A stretch of DNA of 57,752 bases from Planctomycetaceae bacterium (GTDB lineage: Bacteria > Planctomycetota > Planctomycetia > Pirellulales > Pirellulaceae): positions 1 through 57,752 of the forward strand of contig SKKK01000262.1 of assembly GCA_007121535.1 (NCBI GenBank). Direction: 5' to 3'. Of this stretch, positions 5,578 through 25,258 are shown piece by piece. The notes below the pieces were generated by a model. It worked only from the letters and a program-made list of their open reading frames with translations. It was not told where the DNA came from and did no database searches. Numbering within the stretch: the stretch's first letter is position 1; every line of letters starts with the position of its first letter. The position numbers were made by a program, and so were the translations under genes.

Positions 5578-8391
5578 ATGAAGACCGACGAACTCCGCGA
5601 AAAATACCTCGCCTTTTTCCAATCCAAAGGCCACAGTCGCCAGCCCAGCGATGTCTTGGTGCCGACTTGGGATCCCTCGGTCCTGTTCACACCGGCCGGG
5701 ATGAACCAATTCAAGGACCATTTCCTGGGCAAGGTCAAACTCGAGTTCACTCGGGCCACCACCTGCCAGAAATGCTTGCGAACCGGCGATATCGAAAACG
5801 TGGGGCGAACCGCCTATCACCACACGTTTTTCGAGATGCTGGGAAACTTCAGCTTCGGAGACTATTTCAAACGCGAAGCCATTTTGTGGGCCTGGGAGTT
5901 CCTGACGGACAAGGAGTGGTTGGGCATCGATCCCGATCGTTTGACGGTCTCGGTCTATCTGAACGACGACCAGGCTGCCGAGATCTGGCAACGCGACGTG
6001 GGGCTTTCGTCAGACCGGATCGAACGGATGGACGAATTCGACAACTTTTGGCCTGCCGGTGCGCCAAGCGAAGGCCCCGACGGCGTGTGCGGTCCGTGCA
6101 GCGAGATCTTCTACCACGATGATTTCGGTGATTCGGTCGAGATCTGGAATCTGGTGTTCACGCAGTTCCACCGAGTCGGTGATCCGCCCGACAACCTGCG
6201 TCCGCTGCCCAGCAAGAACATCGACACGGGGATGGGGCTGGAACGCGCCGCCGCTTGTTTGCAGGGAGTCCGGACGAATTATCATATCGACATCCTGCGA
6301 CCGATCGTCGATGCCGCGGCCGAAGTCTGCGGGACAACGTACGAATTCGAATCGGATTCCGGTCGCCGTCTGCGAAGGATCACCGATCACGTTCGAGCCT
6401 GTGCGATGGCCGTTCACGAAAACGTGTACCCGGGTCCGCAAAAGGAAAAATACGTGATCCGCCGCCTGCTGCGGCGGGCGGTGTTGGATGGCCATCACAT
6501 GGGTTTGCGCGACCCGTTCCTGTATCAACTGGTGCCGGTGGTGGCCCAGACGATGGAGGTTCCCTATCCCGAGCTGCAAGGCACGGTCGGGCGAGTGATG
6601 GAAGTGATCCGCAACGAAGAGGCGAATTTCTTCGGCACGATCGACGCCGGTCTGGCTCGCATCGAGAAGATCTTCGCCGAAATGAAGTCCGCCAACCGGG
6701 CCACGGTCGACGGCGCGGAAGCGGCCGACCTGTATCAAACCTATGGGGTGCCCCCCGAGGTCTTCGAGACCCTGGCGGCCGAAAGCAATCTGGCGTTCGA
6801 TTGGGACGGGTATCGGCGAGCGATGGTCGAGCACGGCCAGGCGTCGGGCAAGGTGGTGCATACCGTGATGGGCGATCGCGGGCCGATCGATGCGGTCAAA
6901 AAGGTGCTGCACGAGACCGAGTTTGTGGGCTACGACACGATCGAAACGCAGGCCGAACTAAGGTTCATCGTGGCTCAGGGCCAGTTGTGCGATCATCTGG
7001 CCGAACAAGGACACGACCGGGAGATCATCCTGATCCTGAATCGGTCGCCCTTCTACGGCGAATCCGGCGGTCAGGTCGGCGATAGCGGAGAAATCGTGGG
7101 CAGCGATTTTCGCTTTCTGGTGCGCGATACGCAAAAGAACGGCTCGCTGCTGCTGCATCACGGCCATCTGGTCCAGGGCGAATTGCGCACCGGCGCCACC
7201 GTGACCGCTCGCGTCGATGAATCACGCCGCCAGGGCATCCGCCGCGCTCATTCAGCGACGCACATCCTGCATCATGCCCTGCAAAAAAATTTGGGCTCGC
7301 ACGCCCAGCAACAAGGCTCGAAAGTGGACCAGGACTGGCTGCGATTCGATTTCACGAACATGGCGCCCGTGACGACCGAACAATTGGCTGCGATCGAGCG
7401 GGACGTGAATACCCGGATCGCGTCCGCCGAACCGATCGAGTGGCGGGTCGTGCCGCTGGCCGAGGCGCGCCAGGCAGGCGCGATGATGCTGTTCGGGGAA
7501 AAGTATCCCGATCCCGTGCGCATGGTGACCATGGGCGACTTTAGCCGCGAATTATGCGGCGGTACCCATCTGAACAACACCGGCCAGATCGGACCCTTGG
7601 AGATCGTTGGCGAAGAAGCCGTGGCGGCGGGCGTGCGAAGGATCATCGCCTTGACCGGCGACCGAGCCCAACAGTACCTCGATCAAACGCGATCGGCGCT
7701 GACCGAGGCGGCTCGCATCCTGGAAGCGGGGCTGCTGGCGGTTCCCCGGGCGGCCAATGCGCTGATCGCCGACGTCCGCGATTTGCGCAAGCTGCTGGCC
7801 AGCGGCGGAACGCTTCCGGGCGACCAGTCGCAGGCCTCGCCGTCCGGCGACGACGCCGAACTGAGTCCGGCGCAGATCAAAGCCGCGCTGCGCGACGCGG
7901 CTCGAGCCCTGAACGTCGCGCCGTTCGATGTCCCGCAACGATTGGCCGCACTGAAGAACGAAGCCCAGGATTTGCGTCGACAGATCGGCCAACTGGCTCA
8001 GTCCGGGGACCTGACCGCCGACGGGTTGCTGGAGCGGGCGGAAAAGATCGGCGACACCAAGGTGATCGTCACCCAGACGCCGGGAATCAACCCCAACTTG
8101 ATGCGGCAATTGATCGACCAGATCCGCAAGAAAGCCGATTCTACCGCCGTTCTATTCGGTACGGCGATGGGCGACGATAAAGTCACCCTGATCGCTGGTA
8201 TTAGCCGCGACCTGGTCCAACGGGGCTTGCGTGCCGGTGATTGGGTCCGCGACGTGGCTCAAGTGGTCGGCGGCGGCGGGGGCGGGAAACCCGATATGGC
8301 TCAGGCCGGCGGAAAACTGCCCGAGAAGCTGCCCGAGGCGATCGAGCTGGCCAAGACCAGAATTCGCGAACTGCTATCCACCGTGAAATGA
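5578..8391 (+). CDS. alaS: Alanyl-tRNA synthetase
   Basis: This cytoplasmic class II synthetase charges tRNA-Ala and edits mischarged Ser or Gly. The protein has 937 residues, slightly longer than E. coli AlaRS. It begins MKTDELREKYLAFFQSKGH, the standard N-terminus. The catalytic core holds TWDPSVLFTPAGMNQFK and the motif 2 region RTAYHHTFFEMLGNFSFGDYF. The editing-domain zinc ligands are visible: HSATH with His558 and His562, and CGGTH with Cys660 and His664. The C-Ala region ends with the glycine-rich VGGGGGGKPDMAQAGG and a final helix. The start is fixed by homology; the upstream bases show no strong Shine-Dalgarno sequence. It appears monocistronic, followed by a large palindromic repeat that could act as a terminator. 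Confidence 0.97.
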   Translation: MKTDELREKYLAFFQSKGHSRQPSDVLVPTWDPSVLFTPAGMNQFKDHFLGKVKLEFTRATTCQKCLRTGDIENVGRTAYHHTFFEMLGNFSFGDYFKREAILWAWEFLTDKEWLGIDPDRLTVSVYLNDDQAAEIWQRDVGLSSDRIERMDEFDNFWPAGAPSEGPDGVCGPCSEIFYHDDFGDSVEIWNLVFTQFHRVGDPPDNLRPLPSKNIDTGMGLERAAACLQGVRTNYHIDILRPIVDAAAEVCGTTYEFESDSGRRLRRITDHVRACAMAVHENVYPGPQKEKYVIRRLLRRAVLDGHHMGLRDPFLYQLVPVVAQTMEVPYPELQGTVGRVMEVIRNEEANFFGTIDAGLARIEKIFAEMKSANRATVDGAEAADLYQTYGVPPEVFETLAAESNLAFDWDGYRRAMVEHGQASGKVVHTVMGDRGPIDAVKKVLHETEFVGYDTIETQAELRFIVAQGQLCDHLAEQGHDREIILILNRSPFYGESGGQVGDSGEIVGSDFRFLVRDTQKNGSLLLHHGHLVQGELRTGATVTARVDESRRQGIRRAHSATHILHHALQKNLGSHAQQQGSKVDQDWLRFDFTNMAPVTTEQLAAIERDVNTRIASAEPIEWRVVPLAEARQAGAMMLFGEKYPDPVRMVTMGDFSRELCGGTHLNNTGQIGPLEIVGEEAVAAGVRRIIALTGDRAQQYLDQTRSALTEAARILEAGLLAVPRAANALIADVRDLRKLLASGGTLPGDQSQASPSGDDAELSPAQIKAALRDAARALNVAPFDVPQRLAALKNEAQDLRRQIGQLAQSGDLTADGLLERAEKIGDTKVIVTQTPGINPNLMRQLIDQIRKKADSTAVLFGTAMGDDKVTLIAGISRDLVQRGLRAGDWVRDVAQVVGGGGGGKPDMAQAGGKLPEKLPEAIELAKTRIRELLSTVK

Positions 8392-8424
8392 ATATCGGGA
8401 TGACCAACCCAAACCGCAGGGCCC

Positions 8425-8567
8425 TGATACGCAACGCTGTGGAGCATTTTCGTAGCCGAATTCGCCAGAATTCGGTTATTCTTGAACGTTCCGAATTCTG
8501 GCGAATTCGGCTACGATCCTCTTGCACGCTCCTTTCTGAGTCCGAAAATCTTTCACAGCGTTGCCTG
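8425..8567. repeat. Large palindromic repeat with perfect 25-bp arms
   Basis: A perfect inverted repeat has arms at 8451-8475 (CGTAGCCGAATTCGCC...) and 8491-8515, with a 15-base loop. Outside it a weaker outer pair flanks the hairpin: GCAACGCTGTG near 8431 and CACAGCGTTGC near 8554. The right outer arm runs up to the start codon of the HEAT lipoprotein gene. It follows alaS by about 60 bases and could terminate its transcript, but there is no T-run. The compound structure looks like a small mobile repeat. Confidence 0.85.
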
Positions 8568-9230
8568 ATGCGCCGCATGTTTCTCGCGATGCCCCTGATC
8601 GTGATTTCTTGCCTGGCAACCGTCGGTTGTGGGTGCAGTGGGTATCCGGAGAGCCGGTTTCGACCGATCGAGATCCCTGACGACGCGCCCGCCGAACTGA
8701 TGGAGACCTTCCAGCGTCTGAATGCACCGGAGGCGTTGTCGCGCGCTCATGCCGCTCGTCAACTGGGCAAAGCACCCGAACCGCACCCGGCGATCATCAC
8801 GTGCTTGCTGGCTGCCTTGGAGGACGAGAACATGATGGTGCGGATGGCGGCTGCCGAAGGACTGGGCAACGCGGGCAGCCCAAGGGCGATCGAAGCCTTG
8901 ATCCAGCGGTTGCGGGACCGTCAGGAAGATCGTGAAGTTCGAGCGCGGGCGGCCGAATCGCTGGGACAACTACGGGCCGATCAGGCCGTGGACGTGCTGA
9001 TCGCGGCGTTGAACGACAGCGTGTGGTACATCCGGCTGCAAGCGGTGAATTCGCTGGCCGCCATCAGAGATCCGGCGGCCGTGCCGCACTTGGAAATCGT
9101 GGCTCGTTACGACTCGGATTACTCGGTTCGTTCAGCGGCCGATCAGGCGTTGCAGGTTGTAAAGGTAGCGAATCAGCAGAAGGACGAGGATGACAAGGAC
9201 GTTCACGATGGGGGTCACTCCGATTCGTAG
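8568..9230 (+). CDS. HEAT-repeat lipoprotein
   Basis: The 220-residue protein starts MRRMFLAMPLIVISCLATVGC, a signal peptide with a lipobox-like ATVGC, so it is probably lipid-anchored in the cell envelope. From about residue 55 to 200 it is a run of HEAT/PBS-lyase-type helical repeats. The repeated cores are EDENMMVRMAAAEGLGNAGS, DREVRARAAESLGQLRADQA, DSVWYIRLQAVNSLAAIRDP and DSDYSVRSAADQAL. Such repeats bind proteins; no catalytic motif is present. The tail is charged (EDDKDVHDGGHSDS). The start is uncertain between 8568 and the ATG at 8577, because a palindromic repeat extends right up to this point and no Shine-Dalgarno sequence is clear. It is a common planctomycete arrangement with unknown partner. 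Confidence 0.75.
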   Translation: MRRMFLAMPLIVISCLATVGCGCSGYPESRFRPIEIPDDAPAELMETFQRLNAPEALSRAHAARQLGKAPEPHPAIITCLLAALEDENMMVRMAAAEGLGNAGSPRAIEALIQRLRDRQEDREVRARAAESLGQLRADQAVDVLIAALNDSVWYIRLQAVNSLAAIRDPAAVPHLEIVARYDSDYSVRSAADQALQVVKVANQQKDEDDKDVHDGGHSDS

Positions 9231-10118: not shown

Positions 10119-11618
10119 TCAAACCACCGTCCGCTTGATCACCAACCACGTCCGGTCTTCGGACACCTGCTCGCGGCAATGCTGCCCGGCGAAGGCTTCG
10201 ATTCGGTCGACCAGGCCGTTGGCCGATATAGCATGGTGGCGTTGCACCAAACGCCATAACAATTTCGCTTTGCCCACCTTCAGCGACCGCTTGAAGCCTT
10301 GGCTGAAAACGACCAACGAATCGCCCACCTGCATCTGTTCCCGCTGAAGCGGATAGACCGCGTCGGGCTGCATACCAAGCGGCGAATCGTCGACCGTTGC
10401 CAGCGGTCGAGCCTGCGGGCCGACGATCGAGGCGTCGATCGGCCCTGCGGAGGCACATTCGATACGTCCCGACGCGGGCTGGATCTTGGCGTAAAACAAC
10501 GCGGCGAACTGGTCGCCCGCCGAAGCCGACCAGAGCGTCTCGTTGGTTCGCTCGACCAACTGTTGCGCCGAGTGCCGATAGTTGGCGTGAGCCTTGACCG
10601 TCGAGTGGAGCGCCGCAGAGGTCAATCCGGCTTCGACCAACCTGCCTTGCGCGTCGCCCACAACGATGCCCAACGTGCCGTCAGGCAGCACGAACCAGTC
10701 ATGAAAATCGCCGCCCAAATAGTCGCCTTGAATCGTCTTGCCCGCGATCTCCCAACCGTGCAACAGCGGCTTGATTCGCGGCAGTCGCTGGTCCTGCCAG
10801 CGACCCGCATGACGCAATTGCCGCCTGATCGAACGGACGTCCATCGCTTGATGCAACAGCATCTCGCGTTCCAGATCGGCCGCAAGCCGACCTGAGACGA
10901 TCTCCATCAGATTGGACTCGTCCTTCGAAAACGTACGTGGTCGATCGCAGAACATCCAGAGCGTGCCTAGCAGGGTGGTCGGCGTCGAAATGGGAACGCA
11001 AATGGCCGAGCGGAACTCCTCGGGTACGCTCCAGTCGGACATCAACAATGTGTCTTCCAGCATCACGGCATGACCGACCAAGGCTTCCAAATCCGCCACC
11101 GCACCACGTAAAGGACGCGGCGCATCCAAGAAGCGACTCTTGGGAAGCCCCCAGCAGGATCGCAACTTCAAATGCTTGCTGGTCTCGTCCAGCATGTACA
11201 TGGCCACGGCCTGGCAGCCGATCGCTTGAGCGCCGGCCTTCAAGACGGCTTCCAGCCGCACTGCCAAATGATGCTGCTCATCCGGATGGATCGTTACCGG
11301 AACTCCGGCCGCCAGCTCCGCCTCGCGATGCCACAATGCCTTTCGCGTGTCGTCAAGCTGCTGGACGATCTGCCCGATCGCCCCGGCCAACGCCTCCCAT
11401 TCGCCCGCGGACGCCTCCGTTACCGACGCCGATCCGCTCGGAACCGACATCAACTCAACACCGGTCGCGCGACGAAACGTATCGCGCAATCGAGCCAAAC
11501 CCGGAACCTCCTCGTGCCGCGGCCTTGACGGCGCTGGATTCTCTACATGTAATTTCAAATAGCCTGGTAATTTGGGGGCCACAATGGTCACCTCGCACAA
11601 ATCGTTCGGGACCAGCAT
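10119..11618 (-). CDS. GAF-domain PP2C (SpoIIE-type) protein phosphatase
   Basis: This is a cytoplasmic Ser/Thr phosphatase with a sensory GAF domain. Counting from the ATG at 11618 the protein has about 499 residues. A short N-terminal region (LVPNDLCEVTIVAPKLPGYL) precedes a GAF domain at about 105-265 (QAVAMYMLDETSKHLKLRSC, then AICVPISTPTTLLGTLWMFC). The SpoIIE/PP2C domain fills the rest. Metal-binding positions are visible as GDYLGGDFHDWF, GIVVGDAQGRLVEAGLTSAA and the terminal EDRTWLVIK. The frame stays open upstream to a GTG at 11708, adding 30 residues; neither start has a good ribosome site. It lies between a chemosensory cluster carrying a cheB remnant and a secreted flavodoxin. It probably dephosphorylates an anti-sigma-antagonist-like partner, which is not encoded here. 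Confidence 0.85.
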   Translation of the reverse strand: MLVPNDLCEVTIVAPKLPGYLKLHVENPAPSRPRHEEVPGLARLRDTFRRATGVELMSVPSGSASVTEASAGEWEALAGAIGQIVQQLDDTRKALWHREAELAAGVPVTIHPDEQHHLAVRLEAVLKAGAQAIGCQAVAMYMLDETSKHLKLRSCWGLPKSRFLDAPRPLRGAVADLEALVGHAVMLEDTLLMSDWSVPEEFRSAICVPISTPTTLLGTLWMFCDRPRTFSKDESNLMEIVSGRLAADLEREMLLHQAMDVRSIRRQLRHAGRWQDQRLPRIKPLLHGWEIAGKTIQGDYLGGDFHDWFVLPDGTLGIVVGDAQGRLVEAGLTSAALHSTVKAHANYRHSAQQLVERTNETLWSASAGDQFAALFYAKIQPASGRIECASAGPIDASIVGPQARPLATVDDSPLGMQPDAVYPLQREQMQVGDSLVVFSQGFKRSLKVGKAKLLWRLVQRHHAISANGLVDRIEAFAGQHCREQVSEDRTWLVIKRTVV

Positions 11619-12309
11619 CAAGCGGTTGTTGGCACGAGCAAATACCCTAACCGAAAACAGCCACTCAATCTTTTCATGTCCCTTGAATTTCCCGGTCTTC
11701 CTATGCACCGCAAATTAACATCGGGAGGGCGATGCGGTGCAATCGAGCCATTTTGGTTAACCAGTACGAACTTACACGAGGCACGGCCCAAACGGTCATC
11801 GCAATCGTCACAACCGGCCCGCTGACGGTATCGCGTTCGGTTGCTAGACGATTGGTCACCAGCCGGACGATCGACTGACCCCTGCCGGAACCGCCGACCG
11901 AAGGTCTCCCGCCGCCACTGGGCATCTTCATGGTCGCACTCCTCGTTTGCATCGAGTCCAAACGGTCCACACACCTTTTGGGCGAACGAGTGACATTCTG
12001 GCCGGCAAGCAAAGGTTGCCTGAATCCATTGGATCGAACGCCCGAAGAGGCGGTTACAAAACTGGTCTGGGAGACCTGCGGTCGGTGGTTTCGGCGGGGC
12101 CAGAGCCCCGCGCCGAACCGTCTTTGTTACAGCGTCAAAGATGTACTCGTAAAGCGATATGGGCACCCGAAGCTCTTTGTGCTTTTATTTCGAGTTGGCC
12201 GGACGGTTTCTGGCAGGCGGTAAGATGGCGATCAGCAAACTCGCCTGCAACCCGAAGCGTTAGCGAGGGTATTGGGTGCATTCTTCGCTGACGCTTCGCG
12301 TTACGATGA
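11619..12309. other. Gene-poor stretch between the phosphatase and the cheB remnant
   Basis: The stretch of about 600 bases holds no frame with a convincing start and domain. A minus-strand frame near 11701-12012 (LATERDTVSGPVVTIAMTVW) looks protein-like but has no family I recognise and no ribosome site; it could be another eroded gene. Its right end overlaps a family C repeat. Confidence 0.4.
12248..12305. repeat. Family C inverted repeat (GAAGCGTTAGCGAG type)
   Basis: AACCCGAAGCGTTAGCGAGG is followed after about 16 bases by its imperfect inverse TTCGCTGACGCTTCGCGTTA. Translated, it gives the TRSVSEE tail on the cheB remnant, a signature of a repeat widespread in planctomycete genomes. Another half copy sits at 40186-40207. 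Confidence 0.8.
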
Positions 12310-12562
12310 CAAACGCACGATCGAGGCCAGCCGGGGCCTCGATCACGGTGCTGTGTGACAGCCGTGCGAGACTGGCTGCCAGCGAACGGGTGAAGTCCGG
12401 TGGCATGTGTTGCACGACCAGGATCGGTACGTCCGTGTGTTGGCGGAGTCCCGGGAGCAAGGTCTCCAGCGCTTTGGGGCCGCCGGTCGACGCGGCGATG
12501 GCCACAGCCTGAACCGATTGGCCGGCAGTCGCCCCCAAGCCACTGAAGAGGCCTGACGGCAA
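12310..12562 (-). pseudogene. cheB: cheB methylesterase remnant
   Basis: The translation VQAVAIAASTGGPKALETLL, HTDVPILVVQHMPPDFTRSL and ASLARLSHSTVIEAPAG matches the start of the CheB catalytic domain. It includes the nucleophile Ser of ASTGG and the catalytic His of VQHMPP. The receiver domain upstream and the last half of the esterase domain (with its catalytic Asp) are gone. The frame runs into a family C repeat and stops. The remnant sits on the same strand as, and downstream of, the cheA-cheW-mcp group, so it is probably what is left of that pathway's methylesterase. It cannot encode a working enzyme. Confidence 0.8.
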
Positions 12563-12597
12563 AAAGACGCAATAGAATACGAAGGGGGGGTTCCAAT

Positions 12598-12626
12598 ATG
12601 GCGAAACTGCAGCAATTGGCTATAAT
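12598..12626 (+). promoter_or_regulatory. Candidate promoter for the DUF4058 gene
   Basis: A perfect TATAAT at 12621-12626 lies about 70 bases before the DUF4058 start. The -35 region at about 12598-12603 is a poor match, so only the -10 box is persuasive. Confidence 0.3.
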
Positions 12627-12694
12627 CCAGTGTTGGAGAGATCGTAAAGAGTACCGGAGCAGACTGCTTCAATTGATTCCTGGAGACGCCAGTT

Positions 12695-13468
12695 ATGAAA
12701 AGCCCGTTTCCTGGTATGGACCCTTACCTTGAGAAGAAGTGGGGTGAAGTCCACACCAGCCTGATTGTGTATGCGCGAAATCAATTGAACTCGCAGTTGC
12801 CGGATGACCTGCAAGCGACGATCGAGCAATACGTTGCCGTGCAGGTAAACGACGAATACAGCCACTCGTTGCGGCCGGATATGCACGTGGTCGAGCAGGC
12901 TGGGCCCGGTTCGCAAGCGGTCAAGGGGGGCGTTACTGTTGCCGAACCATTGGTGTTGCCAATGGTCCCACACACGGAGCGGCATGTTTCGATTGTGGAC
13001 TCGGGAGACAAGGTCATTACGGCCATTGAATTCGTGAGCCCCTGGAACAAGGTCGGAATCAAAGGCCAGGAAAAATACGCTCGTAAGCAGACCAACTACC
13101 TCGCTGCGGGAATTAACCTTGTCGAGATCGATCTGGTGCGGCAGGGAAGTTATGTGTTGGTCGCCCCCGACGAGATGATTCCCGAGGAACTGCGGACTCC
13201 CTACCTGGCGTGCGTCTACCGGAACGCAAAGCCTGATCAGGTCGAGGTCTTCCGCATCCCTCTACGCGAGCGTCTGCCGAACATTCCGGTCCCACTTCGT
13301 CCGGGCGAAACGGACGCAGTTCTTCAGCTTCAATCTCTGATCGACGACTGTTACCGTGACGGGCGACACCACCGCACGAATTATCGCGTCGAGCCGAAAC
13401 CGCCGCTTGCCAAGGAAGATGCTGATTGGGCCGATACCCTGCTGCGCGAGCAGGGATACCGCACGTAA
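12695..13468 (+). CDS. DUF4058 family protein
   Basis: The 257-residue protein begins MKSPFPGMDPYLEKKWGEVH, the hallmark start of DUF4058, a family common in planctomycetes and cyanobacteria with no known activity. Conserved-looking stretches follow: SLRPDMHVVEQ, AIEFVSPWNKVG, GQEKYARKQTNYLAAGINLVEIDLVRQG and LPNIPVPLRPGETDAVLQLQ. The order of acidic and lysine residues in IEFVSPWNK and EIDLVRQG suggests a PD-(D/E)XK-like fold, which is inference. There is no signal peptide. It lies alone on the plus strand between the minus-strand cheB remnant and MCP gene and probably was inserted between them. Confidence 0.85.
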   Translation: MKSPFPGMDPYLEKKWGEVHTSLIVYARNQLNSQLPDDLQATIEQYVAVQVNDEYSHSLRPDMHVVEQAGPGSQAVKGGVTVAEPLVLPMVPHTERHVSIVDSGDKVITAIEFVSPWNKVGIKGQEKYARKQTNYLAAGINLVEIDLVRQGSYVLVAPDEMIPEELRTPYLACVYRNAKPDQVEVFRIPLRERLPNIPVPLRPGETDAVLQLQSLIDDCYRDGRHHRTNYRVEPKPPLAKEDADWADTLLREQGYRT

Positions 13469-13684
13469 GGACGAAACGGCAGAACGTCACTTACGCGCGC
13501 ATCGGTCTGCCGAAACCGTTCGAGTCCATTTGACAAGCCACCCGTGCCGTGTCTCGAACTAGAATGCAATATAACACTCATCCATCAATCTCCCGTGGAG
13601 AATCAGAACGAGTCAAGCTGGGCGTATTGTCCACCCCGTTGCGTACCGCTCAACCAAGTCCGACGCCTACTGTTTTGCCGATCC

Positions 13685-15937
13685 TTACACCTTGAACGGT
13701 TCGACCAGTTGCTGCAGTTGGGCGGCGATCTCCGTCAGATGTTGGGCGGCCGTGTTCACCTGATGGGCGCTGGCCGTGTTATCGCGCGTCGCCTGGCTGA
13801 CGCCGTGGATATTGGCCGAGATGTCGCGTACGGCGTGAGCGGCTTCGTTGGCGTTGCGGGACATGTCGTTGGCGGCGGTGGCCGCTTCGCTGGCGTTGCG
13901 GGACATGTCGTTGGCGCCCTTGGCGACCTCGGCGATCGAATGGGCGATGTGCTGGACCCCTTGACTGGCTTCGGCCAGGTTGGCAGCGCTGGTCTTGGCG
14001 GACAGGCTTTGGCGATCGATGGACTCGGAGATCCGCGTGGACGAAGCGTTCAGCGTGTAGATGATCTCTTGCACCTCGCGGATCACGCTGACCGCGTCCC
14101 GCGTGCTGCTTTGGACGCCCTCGATCTTGCGGGCGATATCCTCCGCAGCTCGAGCGCTCTGGTTCGCCAATTCTTTGATCTCGTGCGCCACCACGGCAAA
14201 GCCCTTGCCGGCCTCTCCCGCCGAAGTCGCTTCGATCGTGGCGTTCAATGCCAGCAGATTCGTTTGCATCGCGATCATCTTGATCGCTTCGGTCACCTTG
14301 CCGATTTCCGCGGCGGACCGTTCCAAGTCTGTCATGGTGTTGCCGGCCCCGTCGGCCATGTTCATGGCGCGATCGGCCACTTGCGATCCATCCCGAGCGT
14401 CGTGCAAGATCGCCTCGAACGCCTGCGTCGACTCCTGCAGCGCGGTGGCCACCGTGGTCACGTTGCGGGATGTTGCTTCGGCGGCCGACGAGATCGTGCC
14501 GACATTGACGCTGATCTGCTCGCTGGCCGACGAGATCGAAGCCACATTCATGCTCATCTCCTCGGCAGCCGCCGCCATCGTCGTGATGTTCGTGGCCATC
14601 TGCTCGGTGCCGCTGGCAACCTGCCCGGCCTGCGTGGTCATCTGCTCGCTCTGCGTCAACACTTGATGCGAAACGGACGAGAGTTCCCCGGCCGATCTGC
14701 CGATGTTCTGGGAAACCGTGCGGATCTGGCCGACGACATTACCGAAGGCGGCGGCGACCTGATCCAACGCTCCGGCCAGCACGCCTACCTCGTCGCGTTG
14801 GACAAGATTCAAACGCCGGGTCAGATCACCCTGGGCAAGGGCTTCAGAAAACGTCACACCTTGTTCCATCGGCTGGACGATCGAACGAGTTAAGATAAAG
14901 GCCAACGCGGTGCTGATGGCGATGCCGACCAAGGGTACCAGGACCATCAGCCATTGAGACCAACGCGTGGTGGCCTGAACACCGCTCAAGATGTCGAACA
15001 TCTGATTACGGAGTTCGTCTTGCAAGGCGACGAGTGCGTTCATGCCTTCGTTGACCTCGTCGTTGGAAGACTCGGCAAGTTTGGCAGACTGATCGTTGGA
15101 GTTTATCCGCAGCCATTGCCGCATACGTGGCAATTTACCGCGGACCGCCTGCCACGAGGCGTTCAGCAAGTCCAAACGCGACCGGTCGTGAACGTCCACA
15201 AGCGAGGCCAGCTCTAGCAGCAAAGCCTCCATCTCTTTCGAATATGCATCAATCTGCTCGTCCAATCGGTCCATCCATTCGTCAGACGAATCGAAGATCT
15301 TCTGGTTCAACCGTCGATGCAAATCCAGCGCGATCACCTGAACGCGCGAGACCGCCGAATAGAGCCGTGTCGAGGTCAGGCGTTGGCCGTTCTCGGCCGC
15401 AGGCGTCTCGGCCAGCAGTCGTTCCATTTGCCGCAGCCAGGCGCTGGTCGTTTCGTCGATCTCGTCGATTCGGTTACCCAGATCGCCGGTCGTCAACTGG
15501 AACGCTTTTACGTTCGTGTTCTCCAGGCTCAATCTCAGGCACGCATCCAGGTTTTCTTTGTAGCTTTCCCAGGTCGCGTAGAAGGCATCAAGCAGCTTCC
15601 GCTCGTCAGGGAATTGACGCCCATCCAGCGACGCCGACAACTCGGCGTACGTCGCATCCACCTGTTTGGCCGCGTTGCGTGCCAGCTTGACAAACTCTTG
15701 CGATCTGACATCGTCTTGCGAGATGACCGCGCGAAACTGCGTCCTTCTTGTTAACGCAACGTCATCGCGCAGGTGAGCGGCCAGTGTGGATTTCCTGGCG
15801 GTCTCCTCGACCAATTGCTGTAACTGGCGGCTCACTCTGCCCAGCCCTCGATAGCCAACCACTGCTACCGCGATCACGCAGACGACAAGAATGCCGACGA
15901 TCAGTCCAAGCTTCGTGGGAAGTCGCAAATCGTTCAC
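13685..15937 (-). CDS. Methyl-accepting chemotaxis protein
   Basis: This membrane chemoreceptor has about 750 residues. The GTG at 15937 overlaps the cheW stop (CAGTGA), with AAGGAG about 9 bases upstream inside cheW. One transmembrane helix lies at about residues 9-29 ([20 protein letters not shown]) and a second near 310-330 ([20 protein letters not shown]). They bracket a long helical periplasmic sensor of the four-helix type. A HAMP domain follows ([11 protein letters not shown]), then the signalling hairpin with its tip at [20 protein letters not shown]. Candidate methylation segments include [11 protein letters not shown] duplicated ANDMSRNA(S/N)EAA motif lies near the C-terminus. No pentapeptide tether for CheR/CheB is present. 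No CheR is in the window and cheB is broken, so adaptation may be lost or supplied from elsewhere. Confidence 0.92.
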
Positions 15938-16500
15938 TGGTAGTTCTCCTTGGATGCGTTGCCATGCGAAGACGGCTCCTGACACCTTTTCGCGATGATT
16001 TGTTCTAAACAGGACGGCAGTCGGTGTGCGTCGAGGATCAACAACAGATGTCCGTCGAGCTTGCCGACGCCTTGAATCAGTTCTTCTTCGGGTAACAGGC
16101 CAGCGTCCTGACTGTCGGCTTCGCTGCCCGTGCGATAGGATTCGATCTGCGCCGCGTCCAGTTCCACCATGTCGCCGATGCGCTGGACCAGGATGCTGCA
16201 GGCATCCCCCAGTTGCGGTTTGAAGACGATCAACCGAGTATCCGCGTCCAGGTCTTCGGGACAGCGATACAGCAAGAAGTTCAAGTCGACGACCAGGACG
16301 ATGTGGCCGCGCAAATTCACATAGCCACGCACCGCGCCCGGTGCGTGCGGAACGGGAGTCAGCGGCGGTACCAACGTGACCTCCTTGACCACGGCGGTCG
16401 GAACGCCGAACCAATGAGCGCGCAGCCGAAATGTGGTGTAGCTCTGCAGTTCCGCGGTGCGAATACTGACGGTGTCTGGTTCGATCGTCATGGTGGTCAT
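15934..16500 (-). CDS. cheW: CheW coupling protein
   Basis: The 188-residue CheW scaffold links the chemoreceptor to CheA. The fold is recognisable from [41 protein letters not shown] (the conserved RG.V region) and [15 protein letters not shown] chose the ATG at 16500 ([18 protein letters not shown]). The frame stays open upstream to 16632, but that extension translates a family B repeat array and is unlikely to be coding. The stop overlaps the start of the MCP gene by 4 bases, which suggests translational coupling. It lies about 370 bases downstream of cheA, separated by repeat arrays. Confidence 0.9.
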
Positions 16501-16542
16501 GGGTTTTTTGTGCTCTCGTAAGCGTTGCTCGGGGTTAGGGTC

Positions 16543-16750
16543 GGCAAAGAAGTAACGGTTGTGTCTTCGTGTGAGCGGCAAGGCGCTAGCCTCCGGTTTT
16601 TCCGTCGTTTTGGGAACGGTGGCGAGTGCCATTCCGCTCAGTTATTCGGGAACGGTGGCTAGCGCCAGTCCGCTCAGTTATTCGGGAACGGTGGCTAGCG
16701 CCAGTCCGCTCAGTTTCTTGGAAACGGTGGCTAGCGCCATTCCGCTCAGG
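16543..16750. repeat. Family B repeat with 36-bp tandem units
   Basis: The copy starts GGCAAAGAAG at 16543 and contains GGCAAGGCGCTAGCCTCCGG. It then has 3.8 tandem units of 36 bp starting at 16614, 16650, 16686 and 16722. Each unit carries GGTGGCTAGCGCCA(G/T)TCCGC or a close variant. It lies between cheA and cheW on the cheA transcript. Confidence 0.85.
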
Positions 16751-16760
16751 TCCATGGAAC

Positions 16761-16833
16761 GGGGTCGGGAGCCGTTTTCGGGCGAGCCGCATTGCAGGTG
16801 GTTGGTCGTTGCCCGAAAACGACTCCCGCCCCC
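16761..16833. repeat. Family A repeat core, copy 2
   Basis: Only the palindromic core is present: GGGGTCGGGAGCCGTTTTCG against CGAAAACGACTCCCGCCCC, with the typical internal GGTTGGTCGTTG. The TAAGCACCCGG head is missing. It follows the family B array directly, downstream of cheA. Confidence 0.8.
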
Positions 16834-16866
16834 TGAAAGACACCCGATCCCGGTTGGTTGCGTTCT

Positions 16867-19800
16867 TCATGATTTGGCTGCCTCACTTTGTTTGGCTAAC
16901 AACGCGGCCACCTTGTGCAGGAACTGCTGGCGGTTCAGTTTCACTTCGTAGCCATCGAATCCACAGGTTCTGGCTCGGTCGCGATCGGCGTCGCTGCTGA
17001 GCGTCGTCAGTGCCAGCAGCGGCAAACGCGCAAACTCAGAGCGTTGACGGAGCGTCTTGGCCAGCGTCCAGCCGTCCATGACCGGCATCTCGATGTCGGA
17101 AACCACCAGATCGAACGGAGACTGTTCCAGTTCCCGGACCGCCTGGGCACCGTCCGCCACCGACACCGCCTGGTAGCCCGCCTCGTCCAGATACCCTCGC
17201 ACCAATTCTCGGAAGAATTCCGTATCGTCCACGACCAAGATTCTGTGCTTCCGAATCCGGGCATCGCTGGCTGATGACGAAGCTCCCGTCCGATCGGTCG
17301 GGTCGCTCCGCTGAGCCAACCGGCCCAGATCCAACAGCATCGTCATCCGACCACGGAGAACGGCCGAGCCGACGACACCATCGGCCTGAAGTACGTCGCG
17401 CTCGATTCGGGCCGGCAAGGCATCCGTATCGATGATCGACGTGGCCAGCAGTCCCAGCGGCCGACCGATGTTCTTGGGCAGCAGAAGAAAGAGCGGATGG
17501 ACCGGGGCGGCGGGCGATACGGGCAGCACTTGGTCCGGACGCAACAGCCGCGTAGTTTCCCCGTCGACCTGTAGGAATTCGCGCGAGCCCACTTGTTCGA
17601 TGTGCTCGGGATCAACCATCACCAAGCGCCGGATCATGGCCAATGGCACCGCGAATTGCTCTTCCGCCCCGTAACGGAACAGCAGCACCTGAGCACTCTC
17701 ACCTCGTTGCGAAGGTTCGTCTGAGGGGTGATCCTCGATATGATCGACGTGCTCGCCGAAGCGAACGCCTGCGTGATGGACAATGCCTTCCATGTTCAGA
17801 ATCAAAGCGACTTGACCGTCGCCCAGGATGGTCGCTCCCGAGAAACAAGTCAACGGCTTGAGCAGGCCGTGCATCGGCTTGACGACAATCTCTTCGTTCT
17901 TCAGGATTTCGTCGACGATCAAACCGAAACGCCGTTGGCCGACTTTCACCACGGCGAACAAGGTCGCCGCCTGTGCCCCGTGCTTTCGCACGATGGACTC
18001 CCGGGTTTTCACGTCGAACGGCCGGGGGTGATCGAGCACTTCGCTTAACCTTACCAACGGCAGCAATCGGCCGCGCAATCGCACGACTTCCTGCTCCAAG
18101 GTACTTTCGATCCGGGTTTGCCCTTGGTCCGGATGCAGGCACACCAGTTCTTCCAAGTCCTTCTGCGGGATGGCGTAACACTGATCCTGTACGCGGACCA
18201 GCAAGCAAGGAATAATGGCCAGCGTCAGCGGTACACACAGCGAGAACGTGGTGCCTTGCCCGGGCGTCGAATCGATCTCCAGCGCGCCACCCAACCGGTC
18301 CAGATTCGTCTTGACCACGTCCATGCCGACTCCGCGTCCCGAGAGATCGGTCACCTCGCTGGCCGTGGAAAACCCGGGCAACGTGATCAGTCCCAGGGTC
18401 TCCTTGTCACTCAAACGGACCAAGTCGGCCGCCGTCCGCAAGCCGCCATCGACCACCTTGCGTCGTATCCGTTCGACCTCGATACCTCGCCCGTCGTCAC
18501 GGATCTCGATATAGATCTGACCGCCCTGCTGCCGCGCGCTCAGCACGATGCGGCCCGTCGCTGGTTTGCCCGCGCGCACACGCTGTTCAGCCGTTTCCAG
18601 CCCATGATCGCAGCAGTTGCGGATCAAATGAGTCAACGGATCGGACAGCAATTCCAGCACACTCTTGTCCAACTCGACCTCTGTCCCGCCCATCTCCAGC
18701 TCGATCGATTTCCCCATCTGCCGAGCCATATCGCGAACCGTCCTCGGGAACCGGGCGAACAGATTCCCCACCGGCTGCATGCGGGTTTGCGTCACCGCGC
18801 TTTGCAGTTGGCTGGTCAAGGCATCCAGCCGCTGCAAGACCGGTCGGATCGCCGCATCGCCCGATTCGATCGACCGCAGCGCTTGATTTCGCACCAGAAC
18901 CAGTTCGCCCGCCAGCGTCATCAGCCGGTCGACCAGCGGAACCGAAATCCGTACGGACGCCGATCGGTCCCCGCTTCGCGGGAGTTCGCCCCCGGATGTC
19001 GCAGTGCCTTTTGCGGCGACGGGTGCCTGGGACGAAAGTTGTTGGGTGGCTGCTTGGACCGGGGGCCGGTCGGCAGGTGCGGGCGTGGACGCTTCCAAGC
19101 ACTGTCGAAGGCGCTGCATGATTTCGCTCACGTCGGCCTCGTCGCTGTGCTGGGCGTCGTCCACCAGCGCCTGGACGCGGTCGGTTCCTGCCAGCAGCGT
19201 GTCGACCACGGTGGAATCGATTCCCGTACCCGTTTGAGACAACGATTCCAGCACGTTCTCCATCGCGTGTGCCAGTTGTTCGATCGTCCGGCAGCCGACG
19301 AAACCGGCGCCGCCCTTGATCGAGTGCATGGCCCGGAACAACCGATGCAAACATTCGGCATCCGCTTCGCCAGGCCGCTGCTCCAAGGTCAAAAGATCCT
19401 GGACAACGTTGGCCAAGTGCTCCCTGGCCTCGCTGACAAACTCGTGGACGGCCGCTTCGGATGCGACTGGGGGCGAAGGGTCGGGCGCAAGCTTTGGCGC
19501 AGGCTCGGACGCGAGCTTGGGCGCAGGCTCGGGCGTGGGCGGCAGTTGACCGCTGCGCACGGCTGCGATCTCGGCGATGCAAGCATCGAGTTCCTCGATG
19601 CGCACCGCATCGCTTCCTTCCGCATCGCCGGGCGTGCCCAAACGCCCTAGCGCGTCGACGCCCCGCAAAAGCACATCGACCCCGTCGCTGGTCAGTGCGA
19701 TCTGCCCGCGCTGGGCGGCGACGAAACAGTCCTCCAAGTGATGCGAGATCTGGACCGCCGCGTCGAAGCCGACGATTCGAGCGGCCCCCTTGATCGAGTG

Positions 19801-19950
19801 GGCTGCGCGCATCAGCGACTCGAGTTGCCGGGAATCATCCGGCGTCTTCTCCAGCGCAAGCACTCCGGAACTCAAAGTCGCCAAATGCGTCTCGAGTTCG
19901 GCGCGAAATAACTCCAGCAGCGCCGGATCGGCAGGCGTTCGATCAGTCAT
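16867..19950 (-). CDS. cheA: Hybrid CheA histidine kinase with two Hpt, two CheW-like and one receiver domain
   Basis: This is the central kinase of the chemosensory complex, 1027 residues, cytoplasmic. In order: Hpt1 with phosphoacceptor His51 (AAHSIKGAARIVG); a Pro/Ala linker with APKLASEP-type repeats; Hpt2 with His209 (AMHSIKGGAGFVG); a dimerisation helix pair (VDRLMTLAGELVLVRNQALR); an ATPase domain with HLIRNCCDHGLE, DDGRGI, LSGRGVGMDVV and GQGTTFSL. Then come a CheW-like regulatory domain, a second CheW-like segment (VLLFRYGAEEQFAVPLAMIR) and a C-terminal receiver with VVDD, Asp952 (VVSDIEMPVMDG) and a VKL lysine. No P2 domain is visible. The attached receiver can act as sink or relay. 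Divergently transcribed 171 bases away is a receiver-phosphatase, its likely phosphorylation target. Confidence 0.95.
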   Translation of the reverse strand: MTDRTPADPALLELFRAELETHLATLSSGVLALEKTPDDSRQLESLMRAAHSIKGAARIVGFDAAVQISHHLEDCFVAAQRGQIALTSDGVDVLLRGVDALGRLGTPGDAEGSDAVRIEELDACIAEIAAVRSGQLPPTPEPAPKLASEPAPKLAPDPSPPVASEAAVHEFVSEAREHLANVVQDLLTLEQRPGEADAECLHRLFRAMHSIKGGAGFVGCRTIEQLAHAMENVLESLSQTGTGIDSTVVDTLLAGTDRVQALVDDAQHSDEADVSEIMQRLRQCLEASTPAPADRPPVQAATQQLSSQAPVAAKGTATSGGELPRSGDRSASVRISVPLVDRLMTLAGELVLVRNQALRSIESGDAAIRPVLQRLDALTSQLQSAVTQTRMQPVGNLFARFPRTVRDMARQMGKSIELEMGGTEVELDKSVLELLSDPLTHLIRNCCDHGLETAEQRVRAGKPATGRIVLSARQQGGQIYIEIRDDGRGIEVERIRRKVVDGGLRTAADLVRLSDKETLGLITLPGFSTASEVTDLSGRGVGMDVVKTNLDRLGGALEIDSTPGQGTTFSLCVPLTLAIIPCLLVRVQDQCYAIPQKDLEELVCLHPDQGQTRIESTLEQEVVRLRGRLLPLVRLSEVLDHPRPFDVKTRESIVRKHGAQAATLFAVVKVGQRRFGLIVDEILKNEEIVVKPMHGLLKPLTCFSGATILGDGQVALILNMEGIVHHAGVRFGEHVDHIEDHPSDEPSQRGESAQVLLFRYGAEEQFAVPLAMIRRLVMVDPEHIEQVGSREFLQVDGETTRLLRPDQVLPVSPAAPVHPLFLLLPKNIGRPLGLLATSIIDTDALPARIERDVLQADGVVGSAVLRGRMTMLLDLGRLAQRSDPTDRTGASSSASDARIRKHRILVVDDTEFFRELVRGYLDEAGYQAVSVADGAQAVRELEQSPFDLVVSDIEMPVMDGWTLAKTLRQRSEFARLPLLALTTLSSDADRDRARTCGFDGYEVKLNRQQFLHKVAALLAKQSEAAKS

Positions 19951-20121
19951 GCGGAAACCAAGGCCTGGGGTGTTACGGAAAAGCTTCCTCTTTATTATAG
20001 TTGCGGTTTGAACCTTTCGGATAGAACCGCCTGAGATTCGGAGGCGTTTTATGACGATGCGGGCGAATCGAACGAATAAGGGGATCGAGGGGGCTCATGG
20101 GAATCATCAGGAAGGGCAGCA
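19951..20121. promoter_or_regulatory. Divergent promoter region between cheA and the receiver-phosphatase
   Basis: The gap must hold both promoters. On the minus strand a TATAAT occurs at 19994-19999, about 45 bases upstream of cheA, without a clear -35 box. On the plus strand GGAAGGGCAGCA-like purine-rich sequence precedes the ATG at 20122 and can serve as ribosome site. No operator repeat is obvious. Confidence 0.35.
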
Positions 20122-21348
20122 ATGACTGATCGATCGTCACATGACTCGCATAACTCGCATGGTGCCCACGATCCTCATAACTCTCACCAGCCGGTGACGG
20201 TCTTGTTGGTGGACGACCAGCCGATCGTCGCCGAGGCCGTTCGGCGGATGCTGGCCCCGGAGAGCGACATCGCTTTCCACTACTGCCAGGACCCGACGCT
20301 GGCCATCTCTCAAGCCAACTCGCTTCAGCCCACCGTGATCCTGCAAGATCTGGTGATGCCCGAACTGGACGGTCTAACATTGGTGAAGTTCTTCCGGGCC
20401 AACCCGGCCACTCGCGAGGTTCCGTTGATCGTCCTGTCGACCAAGGAAGAGCCGATTGTCAAGGCCGAGGCGTTCAGCGTGGGCGCCAACGACTATTTGG
20501 TCAAACTGCCGGACCGCCTGGAATTGGTCGCTCGCGTTCGGTATCACTCCAAGGGCTACATCGCGCAACTGGAACGTAACGAAGCGTACCGAGCATTGGC
20601 CGAGAGCCGTCGTCTGCTGGCCGACGAAGTGGCCGAAGCGGCGAAGTACGTCCGGTCGCTGCTGCCCGCGCCGCTGACAGATGGCCCCGTCCGCGTGGAC
20701 TGGCGATTCGTTCCCAGTACCCAACTGGGCGGCGATTCCTTCAGCTATCACTGGCTGGATGACGACCATTTTGCCATCTTCCTGTTAGACGTCAGTGGGC
20801 ACGGTGTCGGATCGTCGTTGATGTCGGTCTCGGCCCTGAATATCCTCCGTTCGCAGGCGTTGCCGAACACCGACTTCCGCGATCCGGGGCAAGTCCTGGC
20901 GGGATTGAACCTGGCGTTTGAAATGGAGCATCATGACAACAAGTTCTTTACCATCTGGTACGGCGTCTATCGTCCCGCGACCCGTCAATTGACGTTTGCT
21001 GGCGGCGGCCATCCTCCGGGCTTGCTGCTAAGCGATCCCTCGCAGCCGGAACTGTCGCTGTCGCTGCTGGAATCGCAGGGGCCGATGATCGGCATGTTAC
21101 CCGACGAAGAGTTCGAGACGGGAACGATCGAGGTGCCTGCGGCGTCCAGGCTGTTGATCTTCAGCGACGGGGTTTTCGAGATCGACAAACCTGACGACAC
21201 CATGTGGAAGTTCGAAGACTTTGTGGAATACCTCCGCACCATCCCACCCGGCGAACCCTTGATGGACCGACTGTTGCGGCATGCCCAAACGCTTCACGGG
21301 TCCGATCAACTGTCGGACGATTATTCCATCGTTCAGGCGGAATTCTAG
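20122..21348 (+). CDS. Response regulator with SpoIIE-type PP2C output domain
   Basis: The 408-residue protein joins a receiver to a phosphatase. A His-rich tail (HDSHNSHGAHDPHNSH, residues 7-22) precedes the receiver (VLLVDDQPIV), with phosphoacceptor Asp76 in ILQDLVMPELDG and Lys in DYLVKLPDR. A coiled-coil helix (ERNEAYRALAESRRLLADEV) leads to the SpoIIE/PP2C domain, with GGDSFSYHW, LLDVSGHGVGSSLMS, GGGHPPGLL and SDDYSIVQAEF supplying the metal and phosphate residues. RsbU-like phosphatases of this type usually dephosphorylate an STAS-domain antagonist to release a sigma factor or other output. Being divergent from cheA, it is the probable output of this chemosensory system. The His-rich tail might bind metal; that is speculation. 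Confidence 0.9.
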   Translation: MTDRSSHDSHNSHGAHDPHNSHQPVTVLLVDDQPIVAEAVRRMLAPESDIAFHYCQDPTLAISQANSLQPTVILQDLVMPELDGLTLVKFFRANPATREVPLIVLSTKEEPIVKAEAFSVGANDYLVKLPDRLELVARVRYHSKGYIAQLERNEAYRALAESRRLLADEVAEAAKYVRSLLPAPLTDGPVRVDWRFVPSTQLGGDSFSYHWLDDDHFAIFLLDVSGHGVGSSLMSVSALNILRSQALPNTDFRDPGQVLAGLNLAFEMEHHDNKFFTIWYGVYRPATRQLTFAGGGHPPGLLLSDPSQPELSLSLLESQGPMIGMLPDEEFETGTIEVPAASRLLIFSDGVFEIDKPDDTMWKFEDFVEYLRTIPPGEPLMDRLLRHAQTLHGSDQLSDDYSIVQAEF

Positions 21349-24614: not shown

Positions 24615-25208
24615 ATGCCGAGCATTCCTGAAACTCGTGTCAGTTTGATTCTCCGTCTACCCGACTCGCACGATGTCGAGGCGTGGGACGAGTTTGTCGC
24701 GATCTACCAACCGCTGGTCTACCGGATCGCCCGCAAGCGGGGATTTCAAGACGCAGATGCCAATGATTTGGCTCAGGAGGTCCTGGTCGCGGTGGCGCGA
24801 TCCGTCGATCGCTGGGTACCTGACCGGACGCAGGGCCGATTCCGTGATTGGCTGTTTCGAATCGCGCGCAATCTGATGATCAATTTTCTGACCCGGCCCA
24901 AGCATCGGCCGCTGGGCACCGGAGACACCAATGTCGCTCGACTGCTGGAGCAACAGTGCGACCCGTCCAGCGAGTCGGCCGAATGGTTTGATGGGGAGTA
25001 TCGCCGCGAGGTTTTCCGGTGGGCAGCGGCACGCGTCCGGCCGGCGGTGACCGAGAAGACATGGGCCGCGTTCTGGCAGAGCAGCGTACTCGATCGCTCG
25101 ATCCGGGAGGTGGCGGCTGAATTGGGAATGAGTTGCGGCAGCGTGTACATCGCCCGCAGCCGGGTGATGGCCAGACTGCGGGATGAGGTGCGGCGTTTCG
25201 AATCGTGA
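24615..25208 (+). CDS. ECF-type RNA polymerase sigma factor
   Basis: The 197-residue protein carries sigma-70 region 2 ([55 protein letters not shown]) and region 4 ([37 protein letters not shown]), without region 3. This is the planctomycete ECF class that is genetically linked to Ser/Thr kinases. Its stop codon overlaps the GTG that opens the kinase frame, and the kinase ATG is 50 bases on, so the three genes form one operon. No separate anti-sigma factor is present; the zinc-finger-like N-terminus of the kinase may fill that role (inference). Confidence 0.92.
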
Positions 25209-25258
25209 ACGGACCACAATGGGGTCGGCGGAACCTTTTTGACTCAAATGAGGAAGAC

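Follow-up and report, generated by a model that had tools for sequence, protein, structure and literature searches.

In the Wsp system (WspABCDEF-WspR, with a Burkholderia variant that carries WspH), the chemosensory CheA WspE phosphorylates the response regulator WspR (PMC5812489), whose active form is proposed to be a stalk dimer (PMC2270323); every Wsp system in the set of PMC8552884 appears to rely on WspH or WspR. The 57,752-nucleotide contig SKKK01000262.1 of a Planctomycetaceae bacterium, hereafter the window, carries a comparable locus, in which a hybrid CheA with a C-terminal receiver, a CheW and a chemoreceptor of the methyl-accepting chemotaxis protein (MCP) type are encoded next to a response regulator with a WspR-type receiver, named here receiver-SpoIIE. 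The likeness extends to its relatives, as testified by CheB and CheR genes in a sister cluster and by the Wsp gene order in 10 related loci. The window locus differs from Wsp in its output, a SpoIIE-type PP2C phosphatase domain and not GGDEF (WspR) or a histidine kinase (WspH), in the divergent orientation of the regulator gene in this lineage, in its one separate CheW gene, and in its CheA, which in the full CheA tree falls outside the group of the Wsp references.

The general kind of regulator is already known, because the survey PMC3447774 lists receivers fused to a family 2C Ser/Thr phosphatase or to a mononucleotidyl cyclase among the regulators of CheR-TPR clusters, or alternative cellular function (ACF) class. 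The multidomain response regulator of the window cluster is a feature of this class; a receiver of the WspR type, a phosphatase occupying the position of WspR and STAS neighbours are not singled out in the available part of that survey. In HsbR of Pseudomonas aeruginosa, a receiver-PP2C-kinase protein engaged in a partner switch with HsbA, the phosphorylated receiver likewise activates the PP2C domain on an anti-anti-sigma factor (PMC5812489); by its description there, HsbR is set apart by its input, which comes from hybrid kinases and the Hpt protein HptB where a CheA array would otherwise stand, and by a C-terminal kinase domain that is absent from the window protein. The PPM phosphatases RsbU, SpoIIE and RssB share with the window protein the PP2C fold, the conserved Asp residues and a helical linker from a sensory domain, which in RsbU is a coiled coil that dimerizes, and so activates, the phosphatase domains (PMC12143880). 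In contrast to these, the input of the window protein is, judged by gene linkage, a chemosensory CheA, and no STAS or anti-sigma gene lies beside its gene. A WspR-type receiver on a phosphatase was not found described in our literature search, most subscription journals being outside it. What is new is that these regulators have a WspR-type receiver in common, that the phosphatase takes the position of WspR in clusters of Wsp order, that such loci occur in several phyla and that this species has lost adaptation genes. The loci form a natural series, in which a single type of receiver, next to a single kind of sensor array, bears five different outputs, and they offer a concrete candidate for a path that leads from chemoreceptors to partner switching, two processes that are not understood in these bacteria.

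The receiver-phosphatase and its chemosensory neighbours

The unit is composed of four genes and one intergenic region:

20122-21348, plus strand: receiver-SpoIIE (PP2C) response regulator, by Pfam and translation
19951-20121, no strand: 171-base intergenic region between the divergent cheA and receiver-SpoIIE genes
16867-19950, minus strand: CheA hybrid kinase with two Hpt, H-kinase_dim, HATPase_c and two CheW domains and a C-terminal receiver
15934-16632, minus strand: CheW, whose conservation in the two same-genus genomes begins at residue 63 (about 16446)
13685-15937, minus strand: MCP chemoreceptor with 4HB sensor, HAMP and MCPsignal

An initial annotation had placed CheA, CheW and the MCP on one strand with a divergent receiver-SpoIIE phosphatase, an arrangement confirmed by Pfam and translation. 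The GTG start of the MCP gene overlaps the CheW stop codon; the MCP open reading frame as listed (13685-16414) exceeds the length of the conserved protein. All four genes are under purifying selection, with pairwise YN00 ratios of nonsynonymous to synonymous substitution (dN/dS), a measure blind to recent loss, of 0.07 for receiver-SpoIIE (one same-genus comparison), 0.14-0.15 for CheA (against two same-genus genomes) and 0.14-0.18 across CheA, MCP and CheW (two comparisons each); NG86 estimates across the same four genes are 0.10-0.23. A scan of the divergent intergenic region for sigma-70-like promoters found none.

The receiver-SpoIIE protein has a receiver (residues about 23-140), a continuous helix (132-179) and a PP2C domain (191-408). 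When its sequence was searched against the PDB, the top two matches were 3bre (E 7.5e-58) and 3i5a (E 6.1e-56), aligned over residues 23-171, which comprise the receiver and part of the stalk. The entry 3i5a is annotated as P. syringae WspR (with the spelling WpsR), and 3bre bears the name PA3702, a designation of WspR (PMC5812489). In a receiver set taken at E 1e-10 and 75% coverage, a hidden Markov model (HMM) of the window receiver scores 35 rows at 163-330 and the remaining receivers at 57 or less; judged by these sequence matches, the window receiver is of the WspR type. The 35 WspR-type receivers are fused to SpoIIE (28), GGDEF (four: L060, L168, L169 and L170), a histidine kinase (L160), a class III cyclase (L049) and HD-GYP (L047), the seven non-SpoIIE outputs being assigned by Pfam.

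All 25 aligned sequences share Asp31, Asp32, Asp76 and Lys128 of the receiver and Asp205, Asp223, Asp349 and Asp400 of the PP2C domain; Asp76 is the phospho-acceptor position, as initially designated. In the AlphaFold2 monomer model (mean predicted local distance difference test score, pLDDT, 90.6; predicted template modelling score, pTM, 0.69), the single helix 132-179 joins the receiver to the PP2C domain. Positions 155, 159, 166, 170, 173, 177 and 180 of this predicted stalk are hydrophobic in every row having a residue there, with a coiled-coil-like spacing that is broken at Ser162.

Linkage to CheA, gene order and exchange of outputs

Conserved linkage of CheA with the receiver-phosphatase had been set beforehand as a check on the initial proposal, and it was observed: CheA is present in the fetched stretch of 28 of the 30 WspR-type receiver-SpoIIE loci (the exceptions being L052 and L141) versus 0 of the 27 comparison loci, which have a related SpoIIE domain with another receiver or none. 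At 1e-4, no hit to CheA, CheB, CheR, CheW or MCP was obtained in these 27, three of whose stretches are shorter than 10 kb. The Fisher test gives 3e-14, a figure that is not a true probability, the genomes being related. Named genome records yielded 17 loci (nine receiver-SpoIIE, one receiver-GGDEF and seven matched in the SpoIIE part only), and among 392 genomes of the phylum 43, including the window's own, matched at 1e-40; 39 of the 44 match places outside the window's own genome were fetched, that is, all except G191:C59, G293:C10, G455:C219, G362:C205 and G248:C1. The 30 loci include the window and two order-level relatives, L171 and L173, which postdate the receiver HMM and whose assignment to the WspR type is based on 78% identity; the SpoIIE domain is present only in part in L050 and L173. 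Two loci with che genes, L060 (receiver-GGDEF) and L160 (receiver-kinase), stand outside both the 30 and the 27. The linked loci from named records are labelled as Planctomycetota (including Pirellulaceae and Planctomycetaceae), Bacteroidetes, Desulfobacteraceae, Melioribacteraceae and Parachlamydia, with binning errors possible in these metagenome-assembled genomes (MAGs).

The order MCP-CheW-CheR-CheW-CheA-CheB followed by receiver-SpoIIE is complete in ten loci (L049, L127, L129, L130, L131, L134, L135, L138, L139 and L143), with a receiver-cyclase gene and one further gene intervening before receiver-SpoIIE in L049. Contig ends or a missing part account for the other Wsp-like loci without the full order, and operons annotated on Azoarcus pAZKH and Mesorhizobium pMLb run in the same order and finish with a receiver-GGDEF gene. 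Neither the window nor its sister has the Wsp order (MCP-CheW-CheR-CheW-CheA-CheB-regulator): the layout of the window lineage, seen in the sister and L171, has receiver-SpoIIE divergent from CheA-CheW-MCP-CheB-CheR. L173, L046 and L050 agree with this layout as far as their contigs reach, and in L047 the regulators lie beyond cheR.

In a CheA tree of 58 rows, the CheAs of the window, L045, L050, L046, L171, L173 and L047 form one 99* group, and a second 99* group holds three Wsp references and 21 other linked CheAs. When the long-branch row L166 is left out, all linked and Wsp CheAs lie on one side of a branch, with the 25 unlinked planctomycete CheAs on the other (support 86); L013 and L014, whose genomes carry the gene, are counted as linked in this regrouping, which was made after the tree was seen. 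The regrouped tree therefore allows one origin of the CheA linkage. An earlier reading, that the phosphatase had joined two separate CheA lineages, was withdrawn, the data not deciding the matter: the initial tree placed the window CheA among planctomycete CheAs, and a first approximately unbiased (AU) test (p 0.167) grouped L013 and L014 with the unlinked rows. A single origin of the SpoIIE-fused receivers was rejected (AU test, p 0.0024). By the classes of PMC10782961, the several Hpt domains and the receiver of the window CheA fit ACF or type IV pili (Tfp) systems, and its two CheW domains fit F5, the class to which two CheW domains in CheA are almost confined according to that paper. The row L166 comes from a second che cluster of the window's genome (G000:C407 5500-15800), with CheW, CheR, CheW, MCP, CheA, CheB and then a multi-receiver protein, and its CheA forms a very long branch.

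Two neighbouring genes of L047 (8778-9944 and 9980-11149) encode WspR-type receivers, the first with an HD-GYP output and the second with SpoIIE, that are sisters in the tree (100/99), which, by sequence, makes this a clear local output swap by duplication. The pairing of array and phosphatase recurs in very different bacteria, which suggests that evolution swaps outputs on such arrays. The chances seem about even that chemosensory arrays across phyla use the WspR-type receiver-stalk as a dedicated and exchangeable plug, by which they drive a diguanylate cyclase, a histidine kinase, an HD-GYP phosphodiesterase, a class III nucleotide cyclase or a PP2C, and that in the PP2C version Wsp-like sensing is led into the partner switching of sigma factors. 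L049 also carries, at 7642-9129, a WspR-type receiver with a class III nucleotide cyclase, in the same Wsp-order cluster of a Desulfobacteraceae MAG that holds its receiver-SpoIIE.

Candidate route to partner switching

We favour, with a probability of roughly 0.7, a chemosensory pathway whose output is the response-regulator phosphatase; the course that we infer for it, from phosphotransfer and dimer activation to substrate and physiological role, would be the following. The MCP-CheW-CheA array would control the autophosphorylation of CheA, and phosphorylated CheA would pass its phosphate to Asp76 of the WspR-type receiver. Phosphorylated receivers would then pair, aligning the stalk 132-179 into a coiled coil that would dimerize and activate the PP2C domains, and these would dephosphorylate a serine of an anti-sigma-factor antagonist with a STAS domain, or of a comparable protein of a partner switch, whose gene would lie elsewhere in the genome. 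The C-terminal receiver of CheA would probably serve as a phosphate sink or local brake. The CheB/CheR adaptation arm of the cluster has been lost in this species. Since WspR is proposed to act as a stalk dimer and RsbU is activated through its coiled-coil linker, phosphorylation-driven pairing of the stalk, as predicted from the monomer model, would be the simplest mechanism.

As to the substrate, STAS genes are found near five of the 30 WspR-type receiver-SpoIIE loci (L048, L051, L131, L141 and L171). The STAS gene directly adjoins the phosphatase gene in L141, where a small HATPase_c_2 gene is also present; it lies 2-6 kb downstream in L051 and L048, with small HATPase_c_2 genes, and about 4 kb away in L131, where a HATPase_c_2 fusion protein is nearer. 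In L171 it follows cheR by 96 bases, and its nearest STAS relative in the window's genome is on C236 (G000:C236:10484-10792, 47% identity), beside another SpoIIE gene. Near the che-linked receiver-SpoIIE genes, a protein of about 500 residues with an N-terminal HATPase_c_2 also recurs (L048 17035-18516, L051 13910-15391 and L131 8091-9599), with a GNAT-like stretch in L051 and, weakly, in L131.

Several observations weigh against the proposed pathway. PMC2270323 stresses phosphorylation-independent control of WspR, and the Wsp references form a 99* group of which the window CheA is not a member, so that the WspE-WspR specificity is not automatically transferable. Within about 20 kb, L052 and L141 have no che gene beside a WspR-type receiver-SpoIIE. 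A search of the genome for STAS and HATPase_c_2 gave no hit on the window contig, with 13 and 15 matches, respectively, elsewhere. STAS genes also lie near five of the 27 comparison loci (L059 and L162-L165) and so are not commoner in the che-linked group; as proof of a chemosensory route, STAS linkage was rejected as non-specific (5/30 vs 5/27). Its presence near both groups therefore supports the substrate class of such phosphatases, not the chemosensory link. CheS, the STAS-only proteins of alphaproteobacterial che clusters, bind CheA (PMC12654446), and by analogy the STAS protein of L171 could be a CheS-like CheA partner. Finally, a pathway in decay could be what the missing CheB and CheR of this species point to.

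Adaptation-gene loss, rival explanations and flanking genes

Two features on the far side of the MCP gene bear on this last point, the first of them overlooked in the initial annotation:

12326-12559, minus strand: truncated remnant (pseudogene) of a CheB methylesterase gene
12695-13468, plus strand: DUF4058 gene (E 1.6e-59), between the MCP gene and the cheB remnant

The remnant, read from 12559 to 12326, encodes 78 residues that match residues 166-243 of the sister's 373-residue CheB (67% identity, E 1.6e-25) and cover positions 1-60 of the 174 of the CheB_methylest profile (E 1.2e-16). In this same-genus sister genome (G002; L045, L062 and L063), CheA, CheW, MCP and receiver-SpoIIE are ordered as in the window and are followed by an intact CheB (L045 2046-3167, 374 bits vs an NCBIfam cut-off of 293) and by CheR (Pfam E 6.8e-52), so the missing adaptation arm in the window lineage is a secondary loss. 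CheR had initially been reported absent, and the CheR profile search indeed gave no match on the window contig; as an original feature of the cluster this absence does not stand, since the sister cluster holds CheB and CheR. Elsewhere in the window's genome, full or almost full matches to CheR profiles are found on C141, C407 and C579. The place of the sister's cheB-cheR is occupied by the DUF4058 gene and others; the DUF4058 gene takes up the stretch in which one would look for the 5' part of cheB, encoding the N terminus, and its arrival may have broken cheB. A repeat element behind the break was rejected, the candidate 16-mer occurring only twice in the genome. At G000:C554:40623-41194 (minus strand), a CheR match in two frames with a stop adjoins a CheB domain and is apparently a broken gene or an assembly error.

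The CheB remnant, the lack of a CheR match on the contig and the genes standing at the cheB-cheR place would fit a system that is decaying in this species, its array locked in one state. We consider this unlikely: CheA, CheW, MCP and receiver-SpoIIE are intact, with YN00 dN/dS values of 0.07-0.18, in which recent loss would be invisible, and the CheR proteins of C141, C407 and C579 might act in trans. Decay would moreover be compatible with the proposed pathway as the ancestral function.

The fold of the model raises another alternative, that receiver-SpoIIE is mainly an RssB-like adaptor or sequestering partner and not a phosphatase, the phospho-receiver altering the binding of a sigma factor or STAS protein. 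RssB structures match the model over the whole protein, P. aeruginosa RssB (3f7a) being the best and WspR ranking lower, and this RssB is an adaptor for sigma-S degradation despite an active phosphatase domain (PMC12143880). The invariance of the PP2C Asp residues in 25 of 25 sequences and a score of 105.5 bits against the NCBIfam Pseudomonas RssB model NF045505, below its equivalog cut-off of 700, make such a role quite unlikely.

That CheA signals mainly through its own C-terminal receiver or regulators elsewhere, with receiver-SpoIIE as a hitch-hiking neighbour, would suit the divergent genes, which share no common operon, and the ten other planctomycete che clusters (L174-L183), none of whose fetched stretches has a WspR-type receiver-SpoIIE, so that related CheAs can work without it, but is made very unlikely by the linkage of the same receiver type to CheA across phyla and by the seven of seven genomes of the window's CheA group (window, L045, L050, L046, L171, L173 and L047) that carry receiver-SpoIIE beside CheA, with cheA split over two contigs in L173 and receiver-SpoIIE on the far side of cheR in L047.

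The initial annotation had also pointed to a second phosphatase as part of the chemosensory unit, and the gene is indeed present nearby:

10119-11708, minus strand: GAF-SpoIIE protein, judged to lie outside the unit and probably catalytically impaired

It is unmatched in the 38 kb fetched around the sister cluster, to which the search of that genome was confined, and has only weak matches (21-28% identity) in the locus set from named genome records. An alignment to the receiver-SpoIIE family shows Gln in place of the DG-motif Asp, a residue that binds metal in SpoIIE, and a degraded GHG motif; on this sequence evidence the protein is probably catalytically impaired. Its membership of the unit is not borne out, and a role as second output of the same pathway was rejected on these grounds. 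The initial statement that there is no flagellar gene agrees with a search for the FlhA family, which gave no match on the contig; one FlhA is encoded elsewhere in the genome (C44, E 1e-239). On the other side of the unit, 3.3 kb from receiver-SpoIIE, a sigma-70 region 2/4 (ECF-like) gene overlaps a Ser/Thr protein kinase gene (the pair at 24615-26827, plus strand), with no match in the 38 kb around the sister cluster.

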